Shown here: positions 22,020-34,170 of the stretch, piece by piece
Position numbering within the stretch: position 1 is the first letter of the stretch
Layout: the number at the start of each line of letters is the position of its first letter
DNA from: an uncultured Lachnospiraceae bacterium
GTDB lineage: Bacteria; Bacillota; Clostridia; Lachnospirales; Lachnospiraceae
Direction of reading: 5' to 3'
Assembly: GCA_934418125.1 (NCBI GenBank)
Contig: CAKRWT010000006.1
Coordinates: 1 to 64,000, forward strand
Length of the DNA stretch: 64,000 bases
Notes under the pieces: model-generated
Seen by the model: only the letters and a program-made list of their open reading frames with translations
Database searches by the model: none
What the model was told of the DNA's origin: nothing
Position numbers and translations under genes: made by a program

Positions 22020-23075
22020 TTAATAATCTTTATAATATTCCTTAATATAATCCGTCACAATCTTTTCTGCCAGCGCATGCATACCATCCAGCCGTTCTTC
22101 ATAATTATCCAGGGTAAGCCGTTCTTCCCCTTTTGCCAGCTTATCATACACATAGTAGTTGATGTCCTTGGAGAAGTGAATCATATCCATATAATTCCCC
22201 AGGTTGGTAATCACCGGTTCATCATCCTGGTAATAATAGATTTCTACATTATCATAAGCTAACAGGGCAGAAATTGCCTGCTTTTCATTATAGATAACGG
22301 CATCCAGTTCCCCGCTCCGGTAAGCATTATCCCACCACAGCATAGAGTAAGGGGAGAAAAAGAACTTGAAGGTTGTTTCCGGGTGGGCTTCCACCTGCGC
22401 AGTCAGCAGGGCAATGTTGCCTGCCAGTGTGTCTTCATTTGCTGTCTCAGGCTGCATGGTTTTCACAGAGGGCAGACGAGTATATAATCCGGTCGCCATA
22501 TCCTCACCGAAATATTTCCATTGTGCCCAGTTATAGGAATTCCCCTCGTTATAGTCTCCGATGAGGGAATAAGCTACCATATAGGGGATTTTTTCCATCA
22601 GTACATCCTTGTTTAACAGGTACTGATAATCATTGAAATGATTGGTGTCATACAAGTACATGGGGCAGCCGGTGGAGATATAGGTCGGTTCTGTGCTGGC
22701 AGATAACGAGGAAGGGTCAATATTATAGAAAACATAGTCAAGGTTATGGTTTTCATAAGCAATATCCAGCCAGTAGCAAAGGTCTGCGGTAGCACCATAG
22801 GAGCGGATTGCCTTGATGGTCTGGCAGGAAAAGGCATTGTCAAACCAGCTGTTGTCATAGTTCTCACAGACGGAGGAACCTACAATCAGTGCGTTATAGT
22901 CGAAGTTACGCAAGGTTCCCACACACTGGTACTCCTTGTCGGTCAGCACTGCCTTTAAGCCCGGCAGAGGTTTGTGGTATTGGTAAAAAGGGTCGAAGAC
23001 TATCACGAAACCGACAACGAGGGCTAACAGAACCACTGATCTTATGAAGAATGATTTGATAAATTGTTTTTCCAT
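22020..23075 (-). CDS. SGNH-type / DltD-like extracytoplasmic partner of MBOAT
   Basis: A 351-residue protein with one N-terminal membrane anchor (about 10-29) and an outside domain. [14 protein letters not shown] (Ser67/Ser68) looks like the nucleophile loop of an SGNH hydrolase, and the C-terminal [10 protein letters not shown] supplies the Asp-x-x-His pair. Proteins of this type (AlgX, AlgJ, DltD and relatives) take acyl groups from a membrane-bound O-acyltransferase and pass them to a surface glycan. It starts 15 bp after the MBOAT gene, so the two form an operon. Confidence 0.8.
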
Positions 23076-23090
23076 AGCAATAAGTCCTTA

Positions 23091-24602
23091 TCAGAAATTA
23101 AAATACAGGAAAGTGCTGACCTGTGACAGGGATACGATGCACCATACAAAGAGGATGCAGATAATCCAGCAGCGTTTCGAGGTCAGTTCTCCGCTCATGG
23201 CACGTTCATAGGCATTTTTCCGGAAAATCAGGAAGAACGCCAGCAGGAACAATAAAATCATAAACAACAGATATACATATGGCACCAACGTTGGCGATAT
23301 CAGGTCAATAGCCTGCCTGATAAGATAGATTTCGGAAATATCAAGCTGGGAAGCAATATCAAAAATCTTGCCGGTATACCGGAAGGCAAGCAGGTTCTTA
23401 AACAACTGGATGGCACCAGTCATGCTCTCACTTCGGAAAAAGAACAGGGACAGGTTAAAGAGGGTAAAGGTACAAATCCACCCAAGCCAGGCAGGAACAT
23501 GGAACCGGGCCGGTCTTTTTTCGGTACGCCCCTGAATCCCTACAATGCCCAGATTATCCCATACGACAAGAACACCATGGATGGCACCCCATGCCACATA
23601 AGTCCAGGCTGCCCCATGCCACAGACCGCTGAGAAGGAAAATCAGGAAAGTGTTTAGTAACATGCGGAGCTTTCCTTTGCGGCTGCCACCTAACGGAATA
23701 TACACATAGGTAATAAAGAAGCGGGACAGGGTAATGTGCCAACGCTGCCAGAATTCCTTAATGCTGCAGGAGCGGTAAGGGGAGTTAAAGTTTATGGGCA
23801 GTTCGATGTTAAACATTTTGCCAAGTCCCATTGCCATATCGGAGTAGCCGCTGAAATCAAAGTATAATTCAAAGGTGTAGGCGAGAATCACGATGATGGT
23901 GGAAAGGCAGTCCAGTGAAAAGGTCTGCGCAAAGCCATAGTTAGCCATCAGTGCGAAAACATCTGCCAGAAGCACCTTTTTGGCAAGTCCCAGAATGAAC
24001 AGGTAGATGCCACGGGAAAAGGAGGTGGCATCCGGTTTCCGCTTAGACAGGTCTTCAAACTGTGGAATCAGTTCATCATACAGAACGATAGGACCTGCAA
24101 TTAACTGCGGGAAAAAAGTAACAAATGTTACATAATTTAGAAAACTATAGTGCTCTGCCTTTCCCAGACAGCGGTCAATCACAAAGGAGAGCTGCTGGAA
24201 GGTAAAGAAACTGATACCCAGAGGAAGCAGAATGTGCTTCAGGGTAAAGCTGGTATGGAATACCGTATTGATATTCTCGATAAAGAAATCATAGTATTTA
24301 AAATAAAATAAGATGCCCAGATTAAACAGGACACCGGCAATAAGCCCGATACGGTAATACAGTTTTTCGTGTGCAGAAGCTGTGGGAATCCGGGTAAGGA
24401 GAAAACTGAGCAGATAGTTGACCAGAATACTTACCAGAATAATGGCCAGATAATAGGCATTAAAATAGCCATAAAACCATAAAGACATTCCTGCCAGAAA
24501 CAGATTTGCCAGGGTGTATTTCTTATAATGATTCAGTCCGTACCAGCCAAGCAGTACTACTGGCAGGAAGATAAAAATAAAAATATAGGAATTAAATAAC
24601 AT
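23091..24602 (-). CDS. Membrane-bound O-acyltransferase (MBOAT, AlgI/DltB-like)
   Basis: A 503-residue, 10-12-segment protein. The conserved core is clear: CSIKEFWQRWHITLSRFF with YIPLGGSRKG, and the catalytic-histidine region SGLWHGAAWTYVAWGAIHG. MBOAT proteins of this subfamily move an acetyl or other acyl group across the membrane for O-acylation of an exported polysaccharide. It is co-transcribed with the SGNH-like protein and divergent from a DUF4358 lipoprotein gene, a grouping often seen in clostridia. The nearby glycan cluster may make the acceptor (inference). Confidence 0.93.
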   Translation of the reverse strand: MLFNSYIFIFIFLPVVLLGWYGLNHYKKYTLANLFLAGMSLWFYGYFNAYYLAIILVSILVNYLLSFLLTRIPTASAHEKLYYRIGLIAGVLFNLGILFYFKYYDFFIENINTVFHTSFTLKHILLPLGISFFTFQQLSFVIDRCLGKAEHYSFLNYVTFVTFFPQLIAGPIVLYDELIPQFEDLSKRKPDATSFSRGIYLFILGLAKKVLLADVFALMANYGFAQTFSLDCLSTIIVILAYTFELYFDFSGYSDMAMGLGKMFNIELPINFNSPYRSCSIKEFWQRWHITLSRFFITYVYIPLGGSRKGKLRMLLNTFLIFLLSGLWHGAAWTYVAWGAIHGVLVVWDNLGIVGIQGRTEKRPARFHVPAWLGWICTFTLFNLSLFFFRSESMTGAIQLFKNLLAFRYTGKIFDIASQLDISEIYLIRQAIDLISPTLVPYVYLLFMILLFLLAFFLIFRKNAYERAMSGELTSKRCWIICILFVWCIVSLSQVSTFLYFNF

Positions 24603-25570: not shown

Positions 25571-26647
25571 ATGCAGGGATTTATAAAAATATCCAGATAT
25601 GCCGGTATGCGGAACGATTTGGCACAGGCTGGCGGTGGTAATACATCAGTAAAACTGGACGACAAGACCATGCTTGTAAAAAGCTCCGGTATCCAATTGG
25701 CACAGGTCAGTGAGACAGAGGGCTACACGAAAGTGGATTACCGCAGGATTGTGGAATATTTTCAACAGAATATGACAGAGGATACGGAAGCGGTTTTATC
25801 GGAAGAGAAGGGAAAGGAACTTCTCACACAGGCGCAATTAGAAGGCAGCCGTGCCTCGATTGAGACTTTCTTGCATTCGGTTACAGGAAAGTATACCCTA
25901 CATTCCCATCCAACGCTTGTCAATATTCTGACGGCAAGAAAAGGGGGAGAAGCGGTATTGCAAAGCCTTTTCCCGGAAGCGATTATTGTACCTTATGAGA
26001 AACCGGGGGCAGCGTTAGCGGAGGCATACTACCGCAGATACCGGAAACATAAGGCAGAAGGGAAAAACTGCGATATTATTTTCCTTGCCAATCATGGGCT
26101 GGTAGTCAGCAGCGAGGATGTCGGGCAGGTCATTGCCATGACCGAGGAAGTGTTACATAGGATTGTCGATTACTTACAGATAGATAAGAAGGAACAGGAA
26201 CGGTATGAAAATGCCACGAAATTGTGGATAAGTCTGACAAAAATCCCCGTCCTGGGGGAAAAGATTGTATATACCAGCGAGAACCGGTATCTGTCCTGGG
26301 AGTATATAGGGGACAGGCTTCTTGCAAGCCATGTCTGGGAGCATGCCTTCTGTCCGGACTGTGTGGTTTACGGCGCGAAGAAAATGCTGTTTTTGCAGAA
26401 GGATTATGGCAAAGAGGATATCCTGGCATTTCTGGAAAGCTATGGAGAACCGGTGCTTATCTGCTATGAGAAGCAGTTCTATATCGTGGCAGAGAGTGTG
26501 AAAAAGGCACAGGAAATCGAAAATGTGATGAGTTTCAGTGCCAGGGTACAGATGGCAAATCTGGAACAGGGGATGAACTGTCTTAGCGAAGAGCAGGAGG
26601 ATGCCCTTTTAAACTGGGATTCGGAGAAGTATCGCCGGATGCTGTAA
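25571..26647 (+). CDS. Class II aldolase/adducin family protein
   Basis: A 358-residue cytoplasmic protein. The ATG at 25571 follows GAAGGGG; the longer frame from 25436 overlaps the previous gene and lacks homology. The N-terminal two thirds show the class II aldolase fold: GGGNTSVKLDD (phosphate-binding loop), HSHPTLVN (two zinc His) and LANHGLVVSS (third zinc His). The family cleaves or forms sugar phosphates, as in fuculose- or rhamnulose-phosphate aldolase, or epimerises them. The extra C-terminal 130 residues are not a dehydrogenase domain and I do not recognise them. First gene of the glycan run. Confidence 0.85.
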   Translation: MQGFIKISRYAGMRNDLAQAGGGNTSVKLDDKTMLVKSSGIQLAQVSETEGYTKVDYRRIVEYFQQNMTEDTEAVLSEEKGKELLTQAQLEGSRASIETFLHSVTGKYTLHSHPTLVNILTARKGGEAVLQSLFPEAIIVPYEKPGAALAEAYYRRYRKHKAEGKNCDIIFLANHGLVVSSEDVGQVIAMTEEVLHRIVDYLQIDKKEQERYENATKLWISLTKIPVLGEKIVYTSENRYLSWEYIGDRLLASHVWEHAFCPDCVVYGAKKMLFLQKDYGKEDILAFLESYGEPVLICYEKQFYIVAESVKKAQEIENVMSFSARVQMANLEQGMNCLSEEQEDALLNWDSEKYRRML

Positions 26648-26699
26648 GGAAAAGAGTACGAAGCATGCGCAAAGAGTGTGCGCAGAAATGAGGTTTAGT

Positions 26700-28328
26700 A
26701 TGAATGTTATCATTCCCATGACGGGATATGGTTCCCGTTTTGTGGCAGCAGGATATCCGGAGTTAAAGCCCTTTATCCCGGTTATGGAGATGCCGATTAT
26801 TGAATGGATTGTAAAAAGAATGTACCCCGCAGATGTGCATTTTATTTTTGTATGCCGGGGAGAGCATTTACAGAAAGATGCTTCTATGCGGGAGCGGCTA
26901 TTGGAACTGGCACCGGAGGCAACCATTGTTTCCATCGAAGAATGGGTGAAGAAAGGTCCGGTTTATGATGTATTAAGGGCTTACCGGATGTTACAGGATA
27001 CCATAGATCCGGAGGAGCCGTGTATTATCAACTATTGCGACTTCTATATGACCTGGGATTACAGGCAGTTTGCAAGCGAAGCAAGAGAAAGGGACTGCGA
27101 TGGCAGTGTGCCCTGTTATACGGGCTTTCATCCGAATTTACTGCCGGAGAAGAACTATTACGCTTCCTGCCTGACCGATGAAGAGGACAATCTGATAGAG
27201 ATTCGGGAAAAATATTCTTTTGAAAAAGACAAGACAAAGGCAAAACATTCTCCGGGAGTTTATTATTTCAGGAATGGCAGGATAATGGAGAAATACTGTC
27301 AGATGCTGACAGAGCATGAAGAATGTGCTATTAACGGAGAATATTACGCCAGCCTGCCTTATAACTTTATGGTAAAAGATGGGTTAAAGGTGTGGGTGCC
27401 AACCAATGTGGAATATTTCTGCCAGTGGGGAACGCCGGAGGATATGAAGGAATTCGTATATTGGACAGACTGTATCCGACAGGCACAGACAGCAGAAAGG
27501 GAAACACCATCTACCGGGGAAACGGACACGCAGATACTGATTCCCATGGCAGGAGCAGGCTCCCGTTTTACCGAGGCGGGCTATCAGGTACATAAACCGG
27601 CGATTATGACGATTGACAGAAGAACCGGAGAGGAAAAGCCGATGGTAGTCTGTGCCACAGAGGATTTACCGGATGTGGCAGCAGAGGGCAGCAATGTGAT
27701 CTACGTGGACAGAACCTTTCATAAAGAAGATGGGGTGGAGGATACTATCCGGAAATACTATCCCAAGGCACGTTTCCTGACAGTAGACCATCTGACCGAG
27801 GGGCAGGCATGTACCTGTATGCTGGCAGAGCCTTATCTGGCACCAGAGAAACCGCTTCTGATTGCAGGCTGCGACAATGGTATGGATATTGATGGGGAAG
27901 CTTTCGGGAAACTGACTGGCGAGTGCGACTGTATCGTATTTACTTACCGTCATAACGAAGCAGTTCTGGCAAATCCCAACGCTTACGGCTGGATGCTGAC
28001 CGATGAAGCGGGAAATATTACCGGCACTTCTATTAAGAAAGCAATTTCCGACACACCTATGGAAGACCCGGCAGTGGTGGCTACTTTCTGGTTCCGGAGA
28101 GCTGACATTTTCATAGAAGCAACGAAGAAAATGATTGCGGAAAATGACCGGATAAATGGGGAATTCTATGTAGACCAGACCATTCAGCATGTGCTGGACT
28201 TAGGATACCGGGCTAAAATATTTGATATTGAGCGGTATGTAGGCTGGGGAACTCCGGCTGATTATGAAGGCTATCAGAAAACCTATACTTATTTCCAGGA
28301 GTTCCTGGAAAAGGAAGGGTTTTGTTAA
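26700..28328 (+). CDS. Two-domain sugar-phosphate nucleotidyltransferase-like protein
   Basis: A 542-residue protein built from two tandem GT-A nucleotidyltransferase domains. Domain 1 (about 1-265) starts IIPMTGYGSRFVAAGYPELKP and domain 2 (about 278-542) starts ILIPMAGAGSRFTEAGYQVHKP; both carry the G-x-G-S/T-R-F nucleotide-binding loop and the downstream Lys-Pro. Both also have a late metal-binding region (NGEYYASLPYN and NGEFYVDQTIQ followed by WGTPED or WGTPADYEGY). Single-domain relatives join NTP and a sugar phosphate. Two copies in one chain may activate two substrates, or one may be regulatory. ATG 26700 has GAGG at correct spacing. Confidence 0.88.
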   Translation: MNVIIPMTGYGSRFVAAGYPELKPFIPVMEMPIIEWIVKRMYPADVHFIFVCRGEHLQKDASMRERLLELAPEATIVSIEEWVKKGPVYDVLRAYRMLQDTIDPEEPCIINYCDFYMTWDYRQFASEARERDCDGSVPCYTGFHPNLLPEKNYYASCLTDEEDNLIEIREKYSFEKDKTKAKHSPGVYYFRNGRIMEKYCQMLTEHEECAINGEYYASLPYNFMVKDGLKVWVPTNVEYFCQWGTPEDMKEFVYWTDCIRQAQTAERETPSTGETDTQILIPMAGAGSRFTEAGYQVHKPAIMTIDRRTGEEKPMVVCATEDLPDVAAEGSNVIYVDRTFHKEDGVEDTIRKYYPKARFLTVDHLTEGQACTCMLAEPYLAPEKPLLIAGCDNGMDIDGEAFGKLTGECDCIVFTYRHNEAVLANPNAYGWMLTDEAGNITGTSIKKAISDTPMEDPAVVATFWFRRADIFIEATKKMIAENDRINGEFYVDQTIQHVLDLGYRAKIFDIERYVGWGTPADYEGYQKTYTYFQEFLEKEGFC

Positions 28329-28373
28329 GCAGTCTGTGACAGGGTAAATATACAAGAGGGGAAGGGCAGGTTC

Positions 28374-30485
28374 GTGGTACAGAAGCTGAAAACCTTGGAT
28401 TTGGAGAAAAACTACAGAAAGTACATAGGGATGGTCATTTTACTGGCGGTCTTGTTTAAGTTACTCTTAATGGGGCTTTTTTCTTCGGATTATCAGGATT
28501 TGATGTTTCTTCCCTTTGTGAAATGTTTTCTGGAAGGGCATAATCCTTATCAGTATTATTATGATAACCGGTTACTGTCTTCTTTCCCTTACCCACCGGT
28601 TATGCTGTTTGTGGAATGTATCGGAGGATTTCTGGTCAGCCTTTTTGGAACCCTTCCGGTCTTCTGGCAGAACTTACTTTTTAAGCTGCCCATTCTTATG
28701 ATGGATTTGCTTGGCCTGTATTATCTGATGCAGATTTCCAAATCCAAGAGAAAATATATCCTGGTGTTATATTTTCTGTCTCCGATTGTCCTGTATGCAT
28801 CTTATATGCATGGGCAGTTGGACCTTATTCCCACCGTATTTCTCATTGCAGCGATTTATTATCTGACGGACAGCAATATTGCCGATAAGCACATACACGG
28901 AGGGGAGGCAAAGTATATCCTGTTCCTGACACTGGCATTGTCTTCCAAGTTACATATTGCGGTAGTGCTTCCGTTGTTTTTCCTGTATCTGTATAAGAAA
29001 AAGGGAGTGAAAAAGGCGGTTGTGATGACTGTGCTGCCAGTTCTTTTGACCGCGGTTATCATATTGCCGTTCTGGGGAAGCGGCTTTGCCAATATGGTAC
29101 TGTTTAATAAGGAACAGAGTGCCATTGACAATGTTTATCTGGAGTACGGAAGCGCCAGATTGTTATTGTCGATTCTGGTGTTGTTATTTATCTATTTCCA
29201 GGCATTTCGTATCTATCAGATGAACCGGGATTTACTGGTAAGTATGGCGGGGCTTTTATTCTCAGTGTTCCTTGCTTTCGTGCCAGCCATGCCGGCGTGG
29301 TATATCTGGATTGTACCATTTTTCATGTTGTATCTGGCAGGGCTTCATGAGAACCGCAGTAAAATGGTGTGGACTTACGGGGTATTTAATTTATTATATC
29401 TGGTTTATTACCTGTTCTTCCATGCTACAAAGTTTGTGGATCTGAGTATTCTGGGCAGGGATTTGAGCTGCCTTAAAATAGCAGACGAAGAACTGAAAAA
29501 TATCGTCTTTACATTGATGGTGGGAACTTTCCTGATAATGGTAATTTCCATGTATCTGTATGGGGTTAACAGTAATTCTTATTACCGCAGACGGAATCGG
29601 CCTTTTATTATCGGAATTGCAGGGGACAGCGGTGCCGGTAAGACAAGACTGCTTACCATGCTGGATGAACTGCTGTCGGAGGAACATATCCTGAACATTG
29701 AAGGGGATGGCGACCATAAGTGGGAGCGTGGCGATGCCAACTGGAAGGAAATGACCCATTTGAATCCACGCGCCAACTATCTATACAGGCAGGCGGAGGA
29801 TTTGCGTATCCTGCGTGGCGGCAATGCAGTAAAGAGGGCAGACTACGACCACAGTACGGGAACCTTTACCAGCAAACGTCGTGTCCTGCCAAAGCCATAT
29901 ATTGTTATGTGTGGTTTACATTCCCTGTATCTGCCCCAGATGCGGCAGGTGCTGGATATGAAAATATATCTGGATACGGACGAGGAGCTGCGCTGCTACT
30001 GGAAGCTGGGAAGAGACCAGGGAGACAGAGGGCAGGAGCAGGCAGCTATCCGCAGGCAGATTGAGAAACGCCGCGCCGATGCAGAGAAATATATCCATCC
30101 CCAGAAGCAGTATGCCGACCTGGTAATTCGCTATTTTGACAGAAACCTGAAACCACAGGAGCAGCAAAAAGAAGCCTATGAGGCAAAACTGAGTGTGGAA
30201 TTTCTCATGGATGTGGGCATTAATGTGGAGCCGGTGCTGGCATTACTGGAGCAGTATCACATTAAGAGTACATTATCCTATGATGGGGACTTGCTGCATC
30301 AGAGAATCCTGTTGGAGGGAGCAGATTTGCAGATAGGGAAAAATATCTGGGAGAAGATAGCCGTCTTCGCCATTCCCCAACTGGAAGACCTGACCGGAAG
30401 CAGTATTATCTGGGAGGATAATGCCAATGGTGCGGTACAGCTCATGTTGTTAGTGGTAATCAGTGAGATTATGAAGAGAGATTAG
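28374..30485 (+). CDS. GT-C membrane glycosyltransferase fused to a uridine-kinase-like P-loop kinase
   Basis: A 703-residue protein with two unlike halves. Residues 1-400 are a polytopic membrane domain of about ten segments with GT-C features: an early outside acidic loop (FSSDYQDLMF, FLEGHNPYQYY) and HGQLDLIPTVFL, like the GQ-x-D segment of GT87/PMT-type transferases. From about 410 a cytoplasmic domain begins with a Walker A loop (GIAGDSGAGKTRLL), then DYDHSTGTFTSKRRV and MCGLHSLYLPQM, which follow the phosphoribulokinase/uridine kinase pattern. GTG 28374 is the likely start (GAAGGGCAGG upstream). Fusion of an outside-acting transferase with a metabolite kinase is unusual. The HAD gene follows after 2 nt. 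Confidence 0.88.
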   Translation: MVQKLKTLDLEKNYRKYIGMVILLAVLFKLLLMGLFSSDYQDLMFLPFVKCFLEGHNPYQYYYDNRLLSSFPYPPVMLFVECIGGFLVSLFGTLPVFWQNLLFKLPILMMDLLGLYYLMQISKSKRKYILVLYFLSPIVLYASYMHGQLDLIPTVFLIAAIYYLTDSNIADKHIHGGEAKYILFLTLALSSKLHIAVVLPLFFLYLYKKKGVKKAVVMTVLPVLLTAVIILPFWGSGFANMVLFNKEQSAIDNVYLEYGSARLLLSILVLLFIYFQAFRIYQMNRDLLVSMAGLLFSVFLAFVPAMPAWYIWIVPFFMLYLAGLHENRSKMVWTYGVFNLLYLVYYLFFHATKFVDLSILGRDLSCLKIADEELKNIVFTLMVGTFLIMVISMYLYGVNSNSYYRRRNRPFIIGIAGDSGAGKTRLLTMLDELLSEEHILNIEGDGDHKWERGDANWKEMTHLNPRANYLYRQAEDLRILRGGNAVKRADYDHSTGTFTSKRRVLPKPYIVMCGLHSLYLPQMRQVLDMKIYLDTDEELRCYWKLGRDQGDRGQEQAAIRRQIEKRRADAEKYIHPQKQYADLVIRYFDRNLKPQEQQKEAYEAKLSVEFLMDVGINVEPVLALLEQYHIKSTLSYDGDLLHQRILLEGADLQIGKNIWEKIAVFAIPQLEDLTGSSIIWEDNANGAVQLMLLVVISEIMKRD

Positions 30486-30487
30486 AA

Positions 30488-31249
30488 ATGATAAAAGCAT
30501 TTGTATTTGACTTGGATGATACCCTATATGCCTATGAAGCGTTGGATAAAGAAGCCAGAAAAAGGGTGCAGGAACTGACCTGTGGAAAGCTTGGCATTTC
30601 AGAAGAACAGTATCAGCAGGCATATCAGCTTGGGAGAACCCGGACGAAAGACCAGCTTGGTAATGTGGCAGCATCTCACAACAGAATGTTGTATTATCAG
30701 AAAACACTGGAATATTTGGGGGCAAAGCCAATGCCCTTGTCTTTGCAGTTATACGAAACTTATTGGGGAACCTTTCTGGAACAGATGAAATTGTACCCTG
30801 GAGTGCGGGAATTATTCGACTGCTTCCATCGGGATAACATAAAGATAGCCGTCTGTACGGATTTGACTGCCCATATCCAGCATCGGAAGCTGGAAGCCTT
30901 AGGGCTTGCAGCAGATATTGATTATCTCATAACCAGTGAAGAGGCAGGCAGGGAGAAGCCTGCCGGAGAGATGTTCCGGTTATGTCTGGATAAACTGGGA
31001 TTGGCAGCAGCAGAGGTCTGTTATGTGGGAGACAGTTTCGGGAAGGATATAGAAGGTGCTATGGCAGCCGGGATGCAGGCGGTCTGGTTCCAGCCAGAAG
31101 GAGCACAGAAACCAGAAGGAGCACAGAAACCGGAAGGAACACAGGAGCCGGAAGAGAAGAAAGGCTATCTGGTTGTTCACAACTACGACCAGTTACGGAC
31201 AGTATATGAGCAGTGGATGCATACGGAGCAGAAAGGAACGGAAGGATGA
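30488..31249 (+). CDS. HAD superfamily hydrolase (phosphatase)
   Basis: A 253-residue haloacid dehalogenase-like phosphatase: motif I FVFDLDDTLY (nucleophile Asp8, Asp10), helical cap (about 18-90), motif II AVCTDLT, motif III Lys in REKPAGEMF and motif IV YVGDSFGKDIEGA. Probably removes a phosphate from a sugar-phosphate intermediate of the same pathway. Between the core and the end lies an 18-bp tandem repeat coding PEGAQK units (31094-31147), which is not part of the fold. ATG 30488 starts 2 nt after the stop of the fusion gene; its own stop overlaps the GT2 start. Confidence 0.9.
   Translation: MIKAFVFDLDDTLYAYEALDKEARKRVQELTCGKLGISEEQYQQAYQLGRTRTKDQLGNVAASHNRMLYYQKTLEYLGAKPMPLSLQLYETYWGTFLEQMKLYPGVRELFDCFHRDNIKIAVCTDLTAHIQHRKLEALGLAADIDYLITSEEAGREKPAGEMFRLCLDKLGLAAAEVCYVGDSFGKDIEGAMAAGMQAVWFQPEGAQKPEGAQKPEGTQEPEEKKGYLVVHNYDQLRTVYEQWMHTEQKGTEG
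31094..31147 (+). repeat. 18-bp tandem repeat in the HAD gene
   Basis: Two identical units CCAGAAGGAGCACAGAAA (31094-31111 and 31112-31129) and a third with three or so changes (31130-31147), then a partial fourth. Encodes repeated PEGAQK/PEGTQE in a linker near the C-terminus; copy number could vary between strains. Confidence 0.9.
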
Positions 31250-31947
31250 TAAAATTATCGGTAGTAGTGCCCTGTTATAATGAGGAAGAGAATATTCCGC
31301 TGATTCTTGCGCGGTTTGATGAGGTAATCGACAGAAATGATGTGGAAGTGATTCTGGTGAACAATGGTTCTACCGATGGCAGTGCCGGTGTATTAGAGGA
31401 GTTACTGCCTAAATACGCTTTTGCAAGAACGGTACTGGTAGAAGTAAACCAGGGATATGGTTACGGTATTTTGCAGGGATTACAGCAATGCCGGGGAGAA
31501 TACATTGGCTGGACACATGCGGATATGCAGACAGACCCTGCAGATATTTTAAAGGCACTGGCAATTCTTGAAGAGGAAAAGGGGCTTGTCTTCGTGAAGG
31601 GAAACCGGAAAGGAAGACCGCTCTTTGATGTCTTCTTTACGGCTGGCATGAGCCTTTTCGAAACCTGTTACTTGCATAAGAAGTTGTATGATATCAACGC
31701 CCAGCCGAATATTTTCCCGAAAGTTTTCTACGACAGTTGGGAGAATCCGCCATATGACTTTTCCCTGGATTTATACGCACTGTATATGGCACGGAAGAAA
31801 AAGCTGCGGGTTGTGCGGTTCCCGGTGCTTTTTCCGGAGCGGATTCATGGTTCCTCCAAGTGGAATACCGGGCTGCAGGCAAAATGGAAGTTTATCAGAC
31901 GAACCATAGATTTCAGTGTGAAATTAAAGAAAAGCGGAAGCTTATAA
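31246..31947 (+). CDS. GT2 family glycosyltransferase, DPM1-like (polyprenyl-phosphate sugar synthase type)
   Basis: A 233-residue GT-A transferase: LSVVVPCYNEEENIPLIL at the N-terminus, VNNGSTDGS nucleotide-binding loop, and WTHADMQTDPADI with the metal-binding acidic motif. Size and lack of membrane helices match dolichol/undecaprenyl-phosphate sugar synthases that load a sugar from a nucleotide donor on a lipid phosphate. ATG 31246 overlaps the HAD stop (ATGA). The two GT-C proteins of the cluster would be natural users of such a lipid-linked donor (inference). Confidence 0.9.
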   Translation: MIKLSVVVPCYNEEENIPLILARFDEVIDRNDVEVILVNNGSTDGSAGVLEELLPKYAFARTVLVEVNQGYGYGILQGLQQCRGEYIGWTHADMQTDPADILKALAILEEEKGLVFVKGNRKGRPLFDVFFTAGMSLFETCYLHKKLYDINAQPNIFPKVFYDSWENPPYDFSLDLYALYMARKKKLRVVRFPVLFPERIHGSSKWNTGLQAKWKFIRRTIDFSVKLKKSGSL

Positions 31948-31965
31948 GGGAAGGTGGACAGTGAC

Positions 31966-32559
31966 ATGGAATACATAGCACACAGAGTCAATACCGTGGA
32001 GGAACTCAGGAAATTACCGGAAGAATATGGGGTAGAGCTGGATTTAAGGGATGACTTAAACGGCAGAATCTATATCGCCCATAATCCCTTTGAACCGGGG
32101 GAGGATTTCGAGGATTACTGCAAAGAGTACCATCACGGAACCATGATATTAAACATTAAGAGTGAGCGGATTGAACATAAGGTTTTGGAATATATGGAAC
32201 AGTATCATATTCCACACTATTTTTTCCTGGATTCTTCGTTCCCGATGATTAAACTGCTGACAGATATGGGGGTAAAGGACATCGCCCTGCGTTTCAGCGA
32301 GCTGGAGGGAATGGACACTATCCGGAACATGGCAGGAAAGGCAGAGTGGGTGTGGGTAGACTGCTTTACCCAAATCCCCTTAAACCAGGACAACTACCAG
32401 GAGTTAAAGAACCTTGGCTATAAGCTGTGCTTCGTATCGCCAGAGCTGGAAGGACAGGAGGAGAAGCTTCCTGCCTACAAAAAGTACCTGGAAGAACAGG
32501 GCATTGTATTCGATGCCATCTGTACGAAGAGTTATCATATCGATGACTGGAAGAAATAA
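31966..32559 (+). CDS. GDPD-like (glycerophosphodiester phosphodiesterase fold) protein
   Basis: A 197-residue cytoplasmic protein. EYIAHRVNTVEELR is the opening His-Arg strand, VELDLRDD supplies the acidic metal pair and IYIAHNPFEPGEDFEDY the next His, the order seen in glycerophosphodiester phosphodiesterases and related PLC-like barrels. It is shorter than usual GDPD enzymes (about 240) and lacks a secretion signal. It might act on a phosphodiester-linked intermediate. I start at ATG 31966 with AAGGTGG at 8 nt; the GTG at 31954 overlaps that site. Confidence 0.75.
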   Translation: MEYIAHRVNTVEELRKLPEEYGVELDLRDDLNGRIYIAHNPFEPGEDFEDYCKEYHHGTMILNIKSERIEHKVLEYMEQYHIPHYFFLDSSFPMIKLLTDMGVKDIALRFSELEGMDTIRNMAGKAEWVWVDCFTQIPLNQDNYQELKNLGYKLCFVSPELEGQEEKLPAYKKYLEEQGIVFDAICTKSYHIDDWKK

Positions 32560-32562
32560 GGA

Positions 32563-34170
32563 ATGGAAACGAAAATGAAGAAGAAAATACAACAGAAAGC
32601 CGGAATGGCAGCAGCCGTTATCCTGACTGTGGTGTTGGGGGTGTTGTTGTTTCACAACCACTGGAAATTTGAACTGCCCGGCTATCCCAATGTGGACGAA
32701 CAGTTATCCTTAGACTGTATTTATAATCTGATGAACCAGCATCTGTATGCCGGCGATATTTACATACTGGACTTTTTCCGGTATCCCCATCTGACCTTCT
32801 ATTATGCGGTGGTGGGTGTCCGTATTCTGGGAAAAGTGTTAACCGGAATGGACACAGTCATTTTACTACGGTATGTTGTATGTGGGACAGCAATTTTATC
32901 TAATATCTGCCTTTACTTTGCTGTAAAAATCATGACAGGCAGCCGGAAATGGGGCTATATCGGACTCTTGCTGGGTACTTTTTCGTTGTACAGCTATTCC
33001 TATCTGTTTTATACCGGACCGGATACGCTGATGTTTGCGGTGGCAAATGTGATTTTGCTGTTAGGCTGTGTGGTTTATCAGGAAAAACAGGAAGACAGAG
33101 CGGTATATCTGTGGTATCCCATGCTGGCGATTTGCATAGGGCTTGCTATGGCAGCCAAGTATCACGGCATTTTATTCGGGTTATTCTGGCTGGCACTGCA
33201 TATCCATAAGAAATATTATAAAAATTACCGCAATAATTTCCTGTTCTTTATCAATTGTATCGTACTGGCACTGGTGTTTGTTGTCTGCAATTATTCCCTG
33301 TTGTTTTATTTTAAAGACTTTGTCGGGGATAACATGTATAACCTGAACCATTATGCCTGGGGACATCCGGGCATCGAGCATAATCTGCCGCTGCTGGGCT
33401 ATGTAGAGGTGTATGGCTTTACAAGCTATGGCGTAATAGGGGCTTTGTTACTGCTCCTTGGCATAGTACGCCTGATTCGGCAGAAGGACTGGAAACAGTT
33501 GGTGGTATTCCTGCTGATGCCTGTGGTGATGATTCTGCTTTTAGCCAGATACCAGATTGTGTTGGGCAGAAATTTGTCCCTGGTGATTCCGTATGCCTTT
33601 CTTTTCATGTTATATGGACTTATGGAGATTGATAGATTGGTAAAAGAAAAGTTCCTGAAGCGGAAGCCCTGGAACCGGAATGCCATCTGGGTGGTGGTAT
33701 TGGTTTTAGTCGGAGCCAATGTGATAACGGTAGTGGGTAACTATCGTTATGACCTGACCTATACCCAGGCAGAGCAGGCAATTACGGAGCAGATTCCGGA
33801 AGGCTCAACGATATATTGTACTTCCTATGCGCCTCAGCTTGACCAGAATAAGTACGAGGTAGTTGAGATTGGTGAGGACATTTCCCTGCTGCCAGAGCAG
33901 CTTGCCGAGGGGGAATATTATATCGATGTGGAGTATGCGACGGGCTATTTTACCCAGCAAAAAGACTACCTGATTTGCCGGCGGGGAGATATGTACCCGG
34001 ACAAAAAGGCAGCCTATCTGGAAAAAATCGGGGCCTACACATTGCAGCAGACCTATCAGGGCATTTCCTACGGAAAAGAATGGAAATACCGGGTAGGTTA
34101 TCTGGATATCTTCCGTTACAGCCCTGAGAAATATTATGTAGGACCTACGATTTCTATTTACAGTCATTAG
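32563..34170 (+). CDS. GT-C family (PMT/ArnT-like) membrane glycosyltransferase
   Basis: A 535-residue polytopic protein with 10-11 segments and a C-terminal outside domain. The first outside loop has YPNVDEQLSLD (the acidic pair typical of PMT/ArnT-type GT-C enzymes), and FYTGPDTLMFAVAN adds the second acidic loop; RYQIVLGRNLSLVIPY resembles the region near the lipid-donor site. Such enzymes transfer sugars from polyprenyl-phosphate donors to surface acceptors. It starts 3 bp after the GDPD-like gene and closes the cluster. Confidence 0.88.
   Translation: METKMKKKIQQKAGMAAAVILTVVLGVLLFHNHWKFELPGYPNVDEQLSLDCIYNLMNQHLYAGDIYILDFFRYPHLTFYYAVVGVRILGKVLTGMDTVILLRYVVCGTAILSNICLYFAVKIMTGSRKWGYIGLLLGTFSLYSYSYLFYTGPDTLMFAVANVILLLGCVVYQEKQEDRAVYLWYPMLAICIGLAMAAKYHGILFGLFWLALHIHKKYYKNYRNNFLFFINCIVLALVFVVCNYSLLFYFKDFVGDNMYNLNHYAWGHPGIEHNLPLLGYVEVYGFTSYGVIGALLLLLGIVRLIRQKDWKQLVVFLLMPVVMILLLARYQIVLGRNLSLVIPYAFLFMLYGLMEIDRLVKEKFLKRKPWNRNAIWVVVLVLVGANVITVVGNYRYDLTYTQAEQAITEQIPEGSTIYCTSYAPQLDQNKYEVVEIGEDISLLPEQLAEGEYYIDVEYATGYFTQQKDYLICRRGDMYPDKKAAYLEKIGAYTLQQTYQGISYGKEWKYRVGYLDIFRYSPEKYYVGPTISIYSH

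Follow-up and report, generated by a model that had tools for sequence, protein, structure and literature searches.

Why would a bacterium build a membrane glycosyltransferase and a phosphoribulokinase-like kinase as a single polypeptide? The question is raised by a gene of an uncultured Lachnospiraceae bacterium (assembly GCA_934418125.1, contig CAKRWT010000006.1), of which positions 1 to 64,000 were analyzed and are hereafter called the window. The gene joins a membrane half with the fold of glycosyltransferases of type C (GT-C) to a kinase half assigned by its sequence to the class II branch of phosphoribulokinases (PRKs). On balance, we lean towards a bifunctional enzyme belonging to a dedicated surface-glycosylation system with its own sugar pathway.

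The GT-C/phosphoribulokinase fusion family

The fusion gene of the window is one intact frame of 703 codons with a GTG start, preceded by the Shine-Dalgarno-like sequence GGGGAAGGG, and the next gene begins 2 bases past its stop. One AlphaFold 2 (AF2) model contains both folds, in agreement with the sequence-only reading, which had described a GT-C half joined to an intact kinase in one 703-residue frame. A phmmer search returned 1004 relatives, and the 120 that were listed all carry the same fusion, covering 97–100% of the query. The same domain order was found in a scan of related genomes, one per species, where 72 of 72 loci encode both halves. The GT-C/PRK fusion is a protein family, not an accident.

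Residues ~10–400 have a GT-C fold, as found by the AF2 model and a PDB fold search, with best matches to ALG3, GPI mannosyltransferase I, and ALG6; the fold proposed earlier for the membrane half was therefore recovered by structure prediction. None of the Pfam GT-C models matched the window fusion at E 0.1, and among 31 fusion members these models gave weak matches, to two members each. These members, picked by hand, make up alignment A2: the window fusion plus 9 of the 120 listed relatives and 21 of the 72 loci; L066 was excluded from it owing to an X in the sequence but is within a larger alignment of 75 fusion rows. An acidic residue is present within positions 36–46, in the predicted first outer loop, in all 75 rows. 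Loop charges, used as a rule of thumb, predict that the active side of the GT-C half and its HGQLD loop face outside, while both termini and the kinase lie inside.

The kinase half and its active site

Residues ~405–703 form a complete class II PRK fold, including its C-terminal part, according to the AF2 model and PDB fold matches. The kinase half matched PF00485 (2.2e-34) and the NCBIfam model PRK07429 (8.5e-59, versus 1.6e-24 for the best uridine-kinase model), and PRK07429 matched all 31 fusion members. The best PDB chains were PRKs, and in one of these entries the molecule is named uridine kinase. In a 46-row tree, the 31 fusion kinases formed one clade (support 99/95), which joined five standalone PRKs (100/99) apart from uridine kinases. 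The PRK sample of this tree is narrow, all five coming from one order; ten kinase stretches had been fetched for it and nine gave a row (L115 gave none), with L113 and L114 on long branches.

Residue D445, which we take to be the place of the catalytic aspartate of PRKs, is invariant in the 75 fusion rows. For the PRK of Methanospirillum hungatei (MhPRK), the accessible text of PMC5241800 names His55, Arg59, Tyr98, His100, Lys151, and Arg154 as side chains of the D-ribulose 5-phosphate (Ru5P) and ATP sites. Aligned by motif with a constant offset, these residues correspond to H448, R452, Y491, H493, K544, and R547, all invariant (75/75), and the place of MhPRK P-loop Ser31 holds Ser or Thr in 72 of 75 rows. 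Eight standalone PRKs, from regions in genomes of the same order as that of L071, served for comparison. At thirty kinase positions the residue is shared by ≥97% of the fusion rows and all eight standalone enzymes, and eight positions differ consistently between the two groups, Trp450 and Trp457 of the fusions among them.

The fusion kinase thus shares with the class II PRKs of cyanobacteria, plants, and archaea the whole fold, the P-loop lysine, Asp445, and the Ru5P and ATP side chains. Unlike them, it is attached to a GT-C, carries Trp450 and Trp457, mostly has Arg in place of the P-loop Thr, and occurs in hosts that nearly always lack a RuBisCO match. Judged by its sequence, the kinase half is a phosphoribulokinase by descent, of the class II branch. 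A uridine kinase is ruled out by model scores, residues, and the tree. The earlier label of a uridine-kinase/PRK-like domain is accordingly narrowed: the PRK family and the P-loop GDSGAGK stand, and the generic grouping gives way to the class II branch with its Ru5P side chains kept. The idea that the kinase phosphorylates a lipid or a polyol was dropped, as no feature supporting it was seen and the site is that of a phosphopentulose kinase.

Ribulose 1,5-bisphosphate (RuBP), the product of PRKs acting on Ru5P, is known above all as the substrate of RuBisCO. A RuBisCO match was absent in 13 of 14 fusion genomes; in the remaining one (G007), RuBisCO adjoins a separate PRK. A role of the fusion in the Calvin cycle is thus not supported in those 13 genomes. 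Near the standalone PRKs, a Pfam scan of the neighbours, which covered seven of the eight regions (L102 was left out), placed RuBisCO next to or near PRK in six of eight regions (L091, L092, L093, L095, L096, and L103) and transketolase near PRK in L093 and L094.

A candidate sugar pathway and its alternatives

The genes from 25571 to 34170 follow one another in the same orientation, overlapping slightly or separated by no more than ~45 bases, and therefore likely form one operon (Table 1). A scan for promoters and terminators gave 13 versus 18.3 and 11 versus 8.9 in shuffled sequences, not clearly above shuffles. The commonest order among the related loci (26 cases) was aldolase, nucleotidyltransferase (NT), fusion, HAD, GT2, GDPD, and second GT-C. 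Many absent partners are explained by contig ends.

From the families and folds of these proteins we infer their catalytic roles and the order of steps. The PRK half would phosphorylate, on the inner side of the membrane, a pentulose 5-phosphate, most likely Ru5P, at O1 to the 1,5-bisphosphate, and the HAD phosphatase would convert this to the 1-phosphate by cleaving off the 5-phosphate. The class II aldolase could then reshape or epimerize the pentulose 1-phosphate, which is a guess, and the NT pair would activate the product as a nucleoside diphosphate (NDP) sugar X, whose identity is likewise a guess. The GT2 would move X onto polyprenyl phosphate, and a GtrA-type protein, encoded in the cassette or elsewhere in the genome, would flip the lipid-linked X. 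Outside, the GT-C half would transfer X from polyprenyl phosphate to a surface polymer, our guess as to the acceptor. One polypeptide would thereby link the first committed step in the cytosol to the final step outside the membrane; the reason for the fusion can also only be guessed. The neighboring GT2 and GtrA point to a polyprenyl-phosphate-linked donor for the GT-C half, and the gene context fits the earlier suggestion that what the kinase makes goes exclusively into one surface glycan.

Table 1. Coordinates and supporting evidence of the fusion gene, its parts, and the adjoining cassette genes in the window
Feature	Position	Strand	Evidence
Class II aldolase, 358 aa	25571..26647	+	PF00596 3.9e-14; in 62/72 loci
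Two fused sugar-nucleotidyltransferase (NT) domains, 550 aa	26676..28328	+	in 70/72 loci
GT-C/phosphoribulokinase fusion gene	28374..30485	+	open frame, AF2 model, PDB fold matches of both halves
GT-C half, residues 1–400	28374..29573	+	fold matches ALG3, GPI-MT-I, ALG6, PimE, ArnT
HGQLD motif, residues 146–150	28809..28823	+	H146, Q148, D150 invariant, 75/75 rows
Phosphoribulokinase half, residues 405–703, predicted cytosolic	29586..30482	+	Pfam, NCBIfam, PDB sequence and fold, tree
P-loop GDSGAGK, residues 417–423	29622..29642	+	
HAD phosphatase	30488..31249	+	best NCBIfam model RuBP 5-phosphatase NF053830; in 66/72 loci
GT2, DPM-synthase/ArnC-like	31246..31947	+	PF00535 7.4e-23; in 70/72 loci
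GDPD-fold phosphodiesterase-like protein, 201 aa	31954..32559	+	in 65/72 loci
Second GT-C-like membrane protein (PMT_2)	32563..34170	+	PF13231 3.6e-4, 21.2 bits, below cutoff 26.1

The aligned aldolase rows keep what are presumably the class II metal-site residues. The first NT copy matched PF12804 (1.8e-6) and the second alone had no Pfam match; both keep the GxGxRF...KP signature, and in many distant relatives the two domains are separate genes. NF053830 matched all 15 HADs scanned (L002, whose coordinates contained stop codons, was left out of the HAD alignment). The likely ATG of the GT2, at 31246, overlaps the HAD stop, the frame being listed from 31213. Its closest PDB relatives by sequence are ArnC and dolichyl-phosphate-mannose synthase, and a GT2 lies within 5 kb of the fusion in 67 loci, L037's match being a different, longer GT2. 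A fold search gave the GDPD TIM barrel for the GDPD-like protein, and a PDB sequence search with its profile gave no match. The open reading frame (ORF) cluster of the second GT-C-like protein, at the cassette end, has a member in 40 of 72 loci. A GtrA gene was seen in 17 of the 72 loci, 15 times at a distance of up to 5 kb, with PF04138 at 2.3e-21 in L043, and stands between HAD and GT2 in many distant loci; elsewhere in the genome, GtrA was found in 8 of 10 genomes tested, including 7 of 7 of Lachnospiraceae type. A 123-aa ORF (L066:1283-1654), at first taken for a possible GtrA, had no Pfam match.

Two loci, L013 and L024, carry a second, diverged fusion upstream of the cassette (L013:837-2930 and L024:889-2970), followed by a protein of >1000 aa from GT-C-like ORF cluster 19. 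Compared with the main copy, the second fusions are 39–40% identical in the GT-C and 54% in the PRK half and keep the key residues, while the other five cassette genes are single-copy within the ~22 kb read. This suggests, from two loci, that each GT-C needs its own kinase, and physical or regulatory coupling fits better than supply through a soluble pool.

Parts of the proposed pathway have known counterparts. NDP-heptose synthesis employs a kinase, a HAD phosphatase, and a nucleotidyltransferase, and the logic is shared: phosphorylate, strip the other phosphate, activate. Heptose kinases have a different fold and act on the anomeric hydroxyl of an aldose. According to the available sections of PMC9700705, a HAD and a FucA-type aldolase of haloarchaea act on RuBP and ribulose 1-phosphate (Ru1P). 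Their non-carboxylating pentose bisphosphate pathway likewise has a RuBP 5-phosphatase-type HAD beside a class II aldolase; there, an isomerase makes RuBP from ribose 1,5-bisphosphate in the service of nucleoside breakdown (PMC9700705), whereas here RuBP would come from a PRK-type kinase of a glycan cassette. Multi-component transmembrane glycosylation in Gram-positive bacteria, e.g., CsbB/GtcA/YfhO, is described in the portion available of PMC8035078 as a GT-A-type glycosyltransferase, a GtrA flippase, and a GT-C. Common to both are a polyprenyl-phosphate-type GT2, GtrA in some of our loci, and a GT-C predicted to act outside, but our GT-C continues into a cytosolic kinase domain, and the cassette brings a precursor pathway along. 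Neither "kinase" nor "fusion" appears in the main text of PMC8035078 as far as accessible. In Citrobacter youngae O1 and O2, three-component pentofuranose systems consist of PPPRS with a HAD domain, a MATE flippase, and a GT136 GT-C (PMC11127046, accessible text). A polyprenyl-phosphate donor derived from a pentose phosphate, a HAD removing the 5-phosphate, and a GT-C are shared with these systems; unlike the route proposed here, their donor is made from phosphoribosyl pyrophosphate without an NDP-sugar. The same accessible text never mentions "phosphoribulokinase" or "fusion" and has "kinase" a single time, in connection with an unrelated chain terminator. A search of open-licence literature found no PRK–GT-C fusion, no PRK in a glycan cassette, and no Ru1P activation. 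The parts are thus known, and neither the fusion nor the pathway was found in the open-access literature searched, in keeping with the earlier remark that no enzyme of this design had been described.

It is a possibility somewhat short of even that, in gut bacteria lacking RuBisCO, a membrane-bound PRK makes RuBP as the initial intermediate on the way to an undescribed surface sugar and that the same polypeptide attaches the finished sugar outside. If so, PRK, commonly treated as a Calvin-cycle marker, would gain a role in glycan synthesis without RuBisCO, and annotations of "phosphoribulokinase/uridine kinase" in gut metagenomes could be read correctly. Candidate genes would be in hand for the synthesis and transfer of a surface sugar, perhaps derived from a pentulose, in Lachnospiraceae and other Clostridia, and the one-chain link of a cytosolic committing step and an extracytoplasmic transfer would make coupling across the membrane directly testable.

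The RuBisCO result strengthens the proposed pathway, while a number of observations, the P-loop and HAD results among them, weaken it. The PRK07429 match of the window kinase (199 bits) is below the curated cutoff of 236, and the tree tool warns that the two large groups may be joined falsely, by long branches. Positions 450 and 457, beside the sugar-phosphate site, hold Trp in the fusions, versus Tyr and Glu/Ala/Gln in the eight standalone PRKs, and 71 of 75 fusion rows have DGDH in place of the DDYH of PRKs; because of these differences, the substrate may be other than Ru5P. The place of MhPRK P-loop Thr32 (PMC5241800, accessible text) is Thr in only 15 of 75 rows and mostly Arg. The window HAD matched NF053830 at 4.5e-57 with 193 bits, not reaching the curated cutoff of 330, so that it is probably RuBP 5-phosphatase-like without being a member of that family, and 11 other, partly less specific HAD models also matched all 15 HADs. 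Partners are missing in some genomes: an aldolase match in four of seven genomes searched (L023, L025, L026, and L056), a full-length HAD match in the genomes of L071 (two partial matches) and L056 (none), and GtrA in two of ten tested (G005 and G006). The majority of fusion loci come from metagenome-assembled genomes (MAGs), in which absences and record titles are weak evidence. In the GT-C half, D39 is Asp in just 72 of 75 rows, and the topology from loop charges requires that helix 75–90 does not cross the membrane, with loop 189–195, called outer, averaging +1. As a donor precursor for a DPM-synthase-like GT2, Ru1P is a weak point because its phosphate is not on the anomeric carbon, and no isomerase was seen in the cassette. 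The route is weak at the NT substrate, at the aldolase step, in the part played by the GDPD-like protein, in the genomes lacking a partner, and at the tryptophans of the substrate loop.

Some of these points are taken up by an unlikely alternative, in which the kinase phosphorylates the anomeric hydroxyl of an aldopentose 5-phosphate (ribose-, arabinose-, or related), the HAD removes the 5-phosphate, the NTs make an NDP-pentose for the GT2 and GT-C, and the aldolase merely prepares the precursor. Kinase, HAD, NT, GT2, and GT-C would then be an unbroken route to polyprenyl-phosphate-pentose, in the way that NDP-heptose synthesis follows a kinase–HAD–NT route. The fusion-specific Trp450 and Trp457 near the substrate site and the four genomes without an aldolase match speak for it, as does the existence of pentofuranose-adding GT-C systems (PMC11127046, accessible text). 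Set against it are the side chains of the PRK Ru5P site, which all 75 rows retain, and the grouping of the kinase with PRKs. We also know of no enzyme of the PRK branch that acts on an aldose phosphate.

It is improbable that the kinase half is instead a sensor or regulator, one that has no metabolic function but gates the GT-C half by binding Ru5P and ATP. Such a part would suit a fusion that has no obvious channelling route across the membrane, the second fusions of L013 and L024 with their own kinase beside single copies of the other genes, and the genomes missing HAD or aldolase, but the key kinase residues, D445 included, are invariant (75/75), and the enzymes that would use the product, HAD and aldolase, are present in 66 and 62 of the 72 loci, respectively. 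Very improbable is a catabolic non-carboxylating pentose bisphosphate pathway, in which PRK, HAD, and aldolase convert Ru5P to dihydroxyacetone phosphate and glycolaldehyde while the GT-C half serves solely to anchor the protein in the membrane: in haloarchaea, a HAD and an aldolase have been shown to carry out these reactions on RuBP and Ru1P (PMC9700705, available sections), but H146, Q148, and D150 of the GT-C motif are kept in all 75 rows, and the GT2, the NTs, and partly GtrA would be superfluous in such a cassette. A sequencing or assembly error joining two genes, the objection raised in the sequence-only reading, has a negligible probability, since nothing was found for it and it is ruled out by the same join in 120/120 listed relatives and 72/72 loci.

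Distribution and neighborhood of the fusion

By record title, the fusion loci belong to Lachnospiraceae, other Clostridia, Gastranaerophilales (L059, L061, and L062), Acidobacteriota (L065), Proteobacteria (L066), Anaerolineales (L071), and Deltaproteobacteria (L056). The kinase of L056 falls among Clostridia rows in the tree, and since most loci come from MAGs, its title may reflect mis-binning or transfer. The full fusion was found in 2 of 291 genomes of the class of L043's genome, 1 of 147 of the order of L066's genome, and 1 of 151 of the order of L071's genome, all of them already among the 72 loci; it is rare in the class and orders scanned. In the first of these sets, a strong GDPD-like match occurred in the same two genomes as the full fusion.

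The cassette is rearranged in some genomes. In that of L037, the fusion has moved, and aldolase, NT-NT, HAD, GT2, and GDPD stand together elsewhere (L124), with HAD directly after NT-NT. In L065 the fusion lies at a contig end, and the same genome has GDPD, HAD, aldolase, NT-NT, and GT2 side by side in this order on a contig whose end falls at GT2. Ten further neighbors from five relatives included a Wzx-type protein, a group 1 glycosyltransferase, a methyltransferase, and five members of other families, with two proteins giving no match, and L041 has a DegT aminotransferase in its neighborhood; these neighbors of some relatives are consistent with surface polysaccharide loci.

In L047, a second, inverted set of aldolase, GT2, and HAD (L047:16870-21974) adjoins the first cassette and includes a 103-aa frame with a match to the C terminus of the fusion. 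A different cluster was seen in L100:7653-10729 and L101:5226-8277, composed of a GDPD-like gene, HAD, NT, a 108-aa protein that looks cupin-like by eye, and a second NT; no match to PRK, aldolase, or the GT-C fusion was found within the 16 kb read. Similar proteins, TylF-type methyltransferase-like by eye, lie beside the fusion in L066 (8244-8954) and beside the GDPD-like gene of L071's genome (L099:662-1378). In the window, 22020-24602 on the minus strand is occupied by a divergent MBOAT gene, whose best NCBIfam model is DltB (below cutoff), and its neighbor. In a sizeable share of the Lachnospiraceae loci this pair is retained close to the cassette, and it perhaps O-acylates the same polymer.

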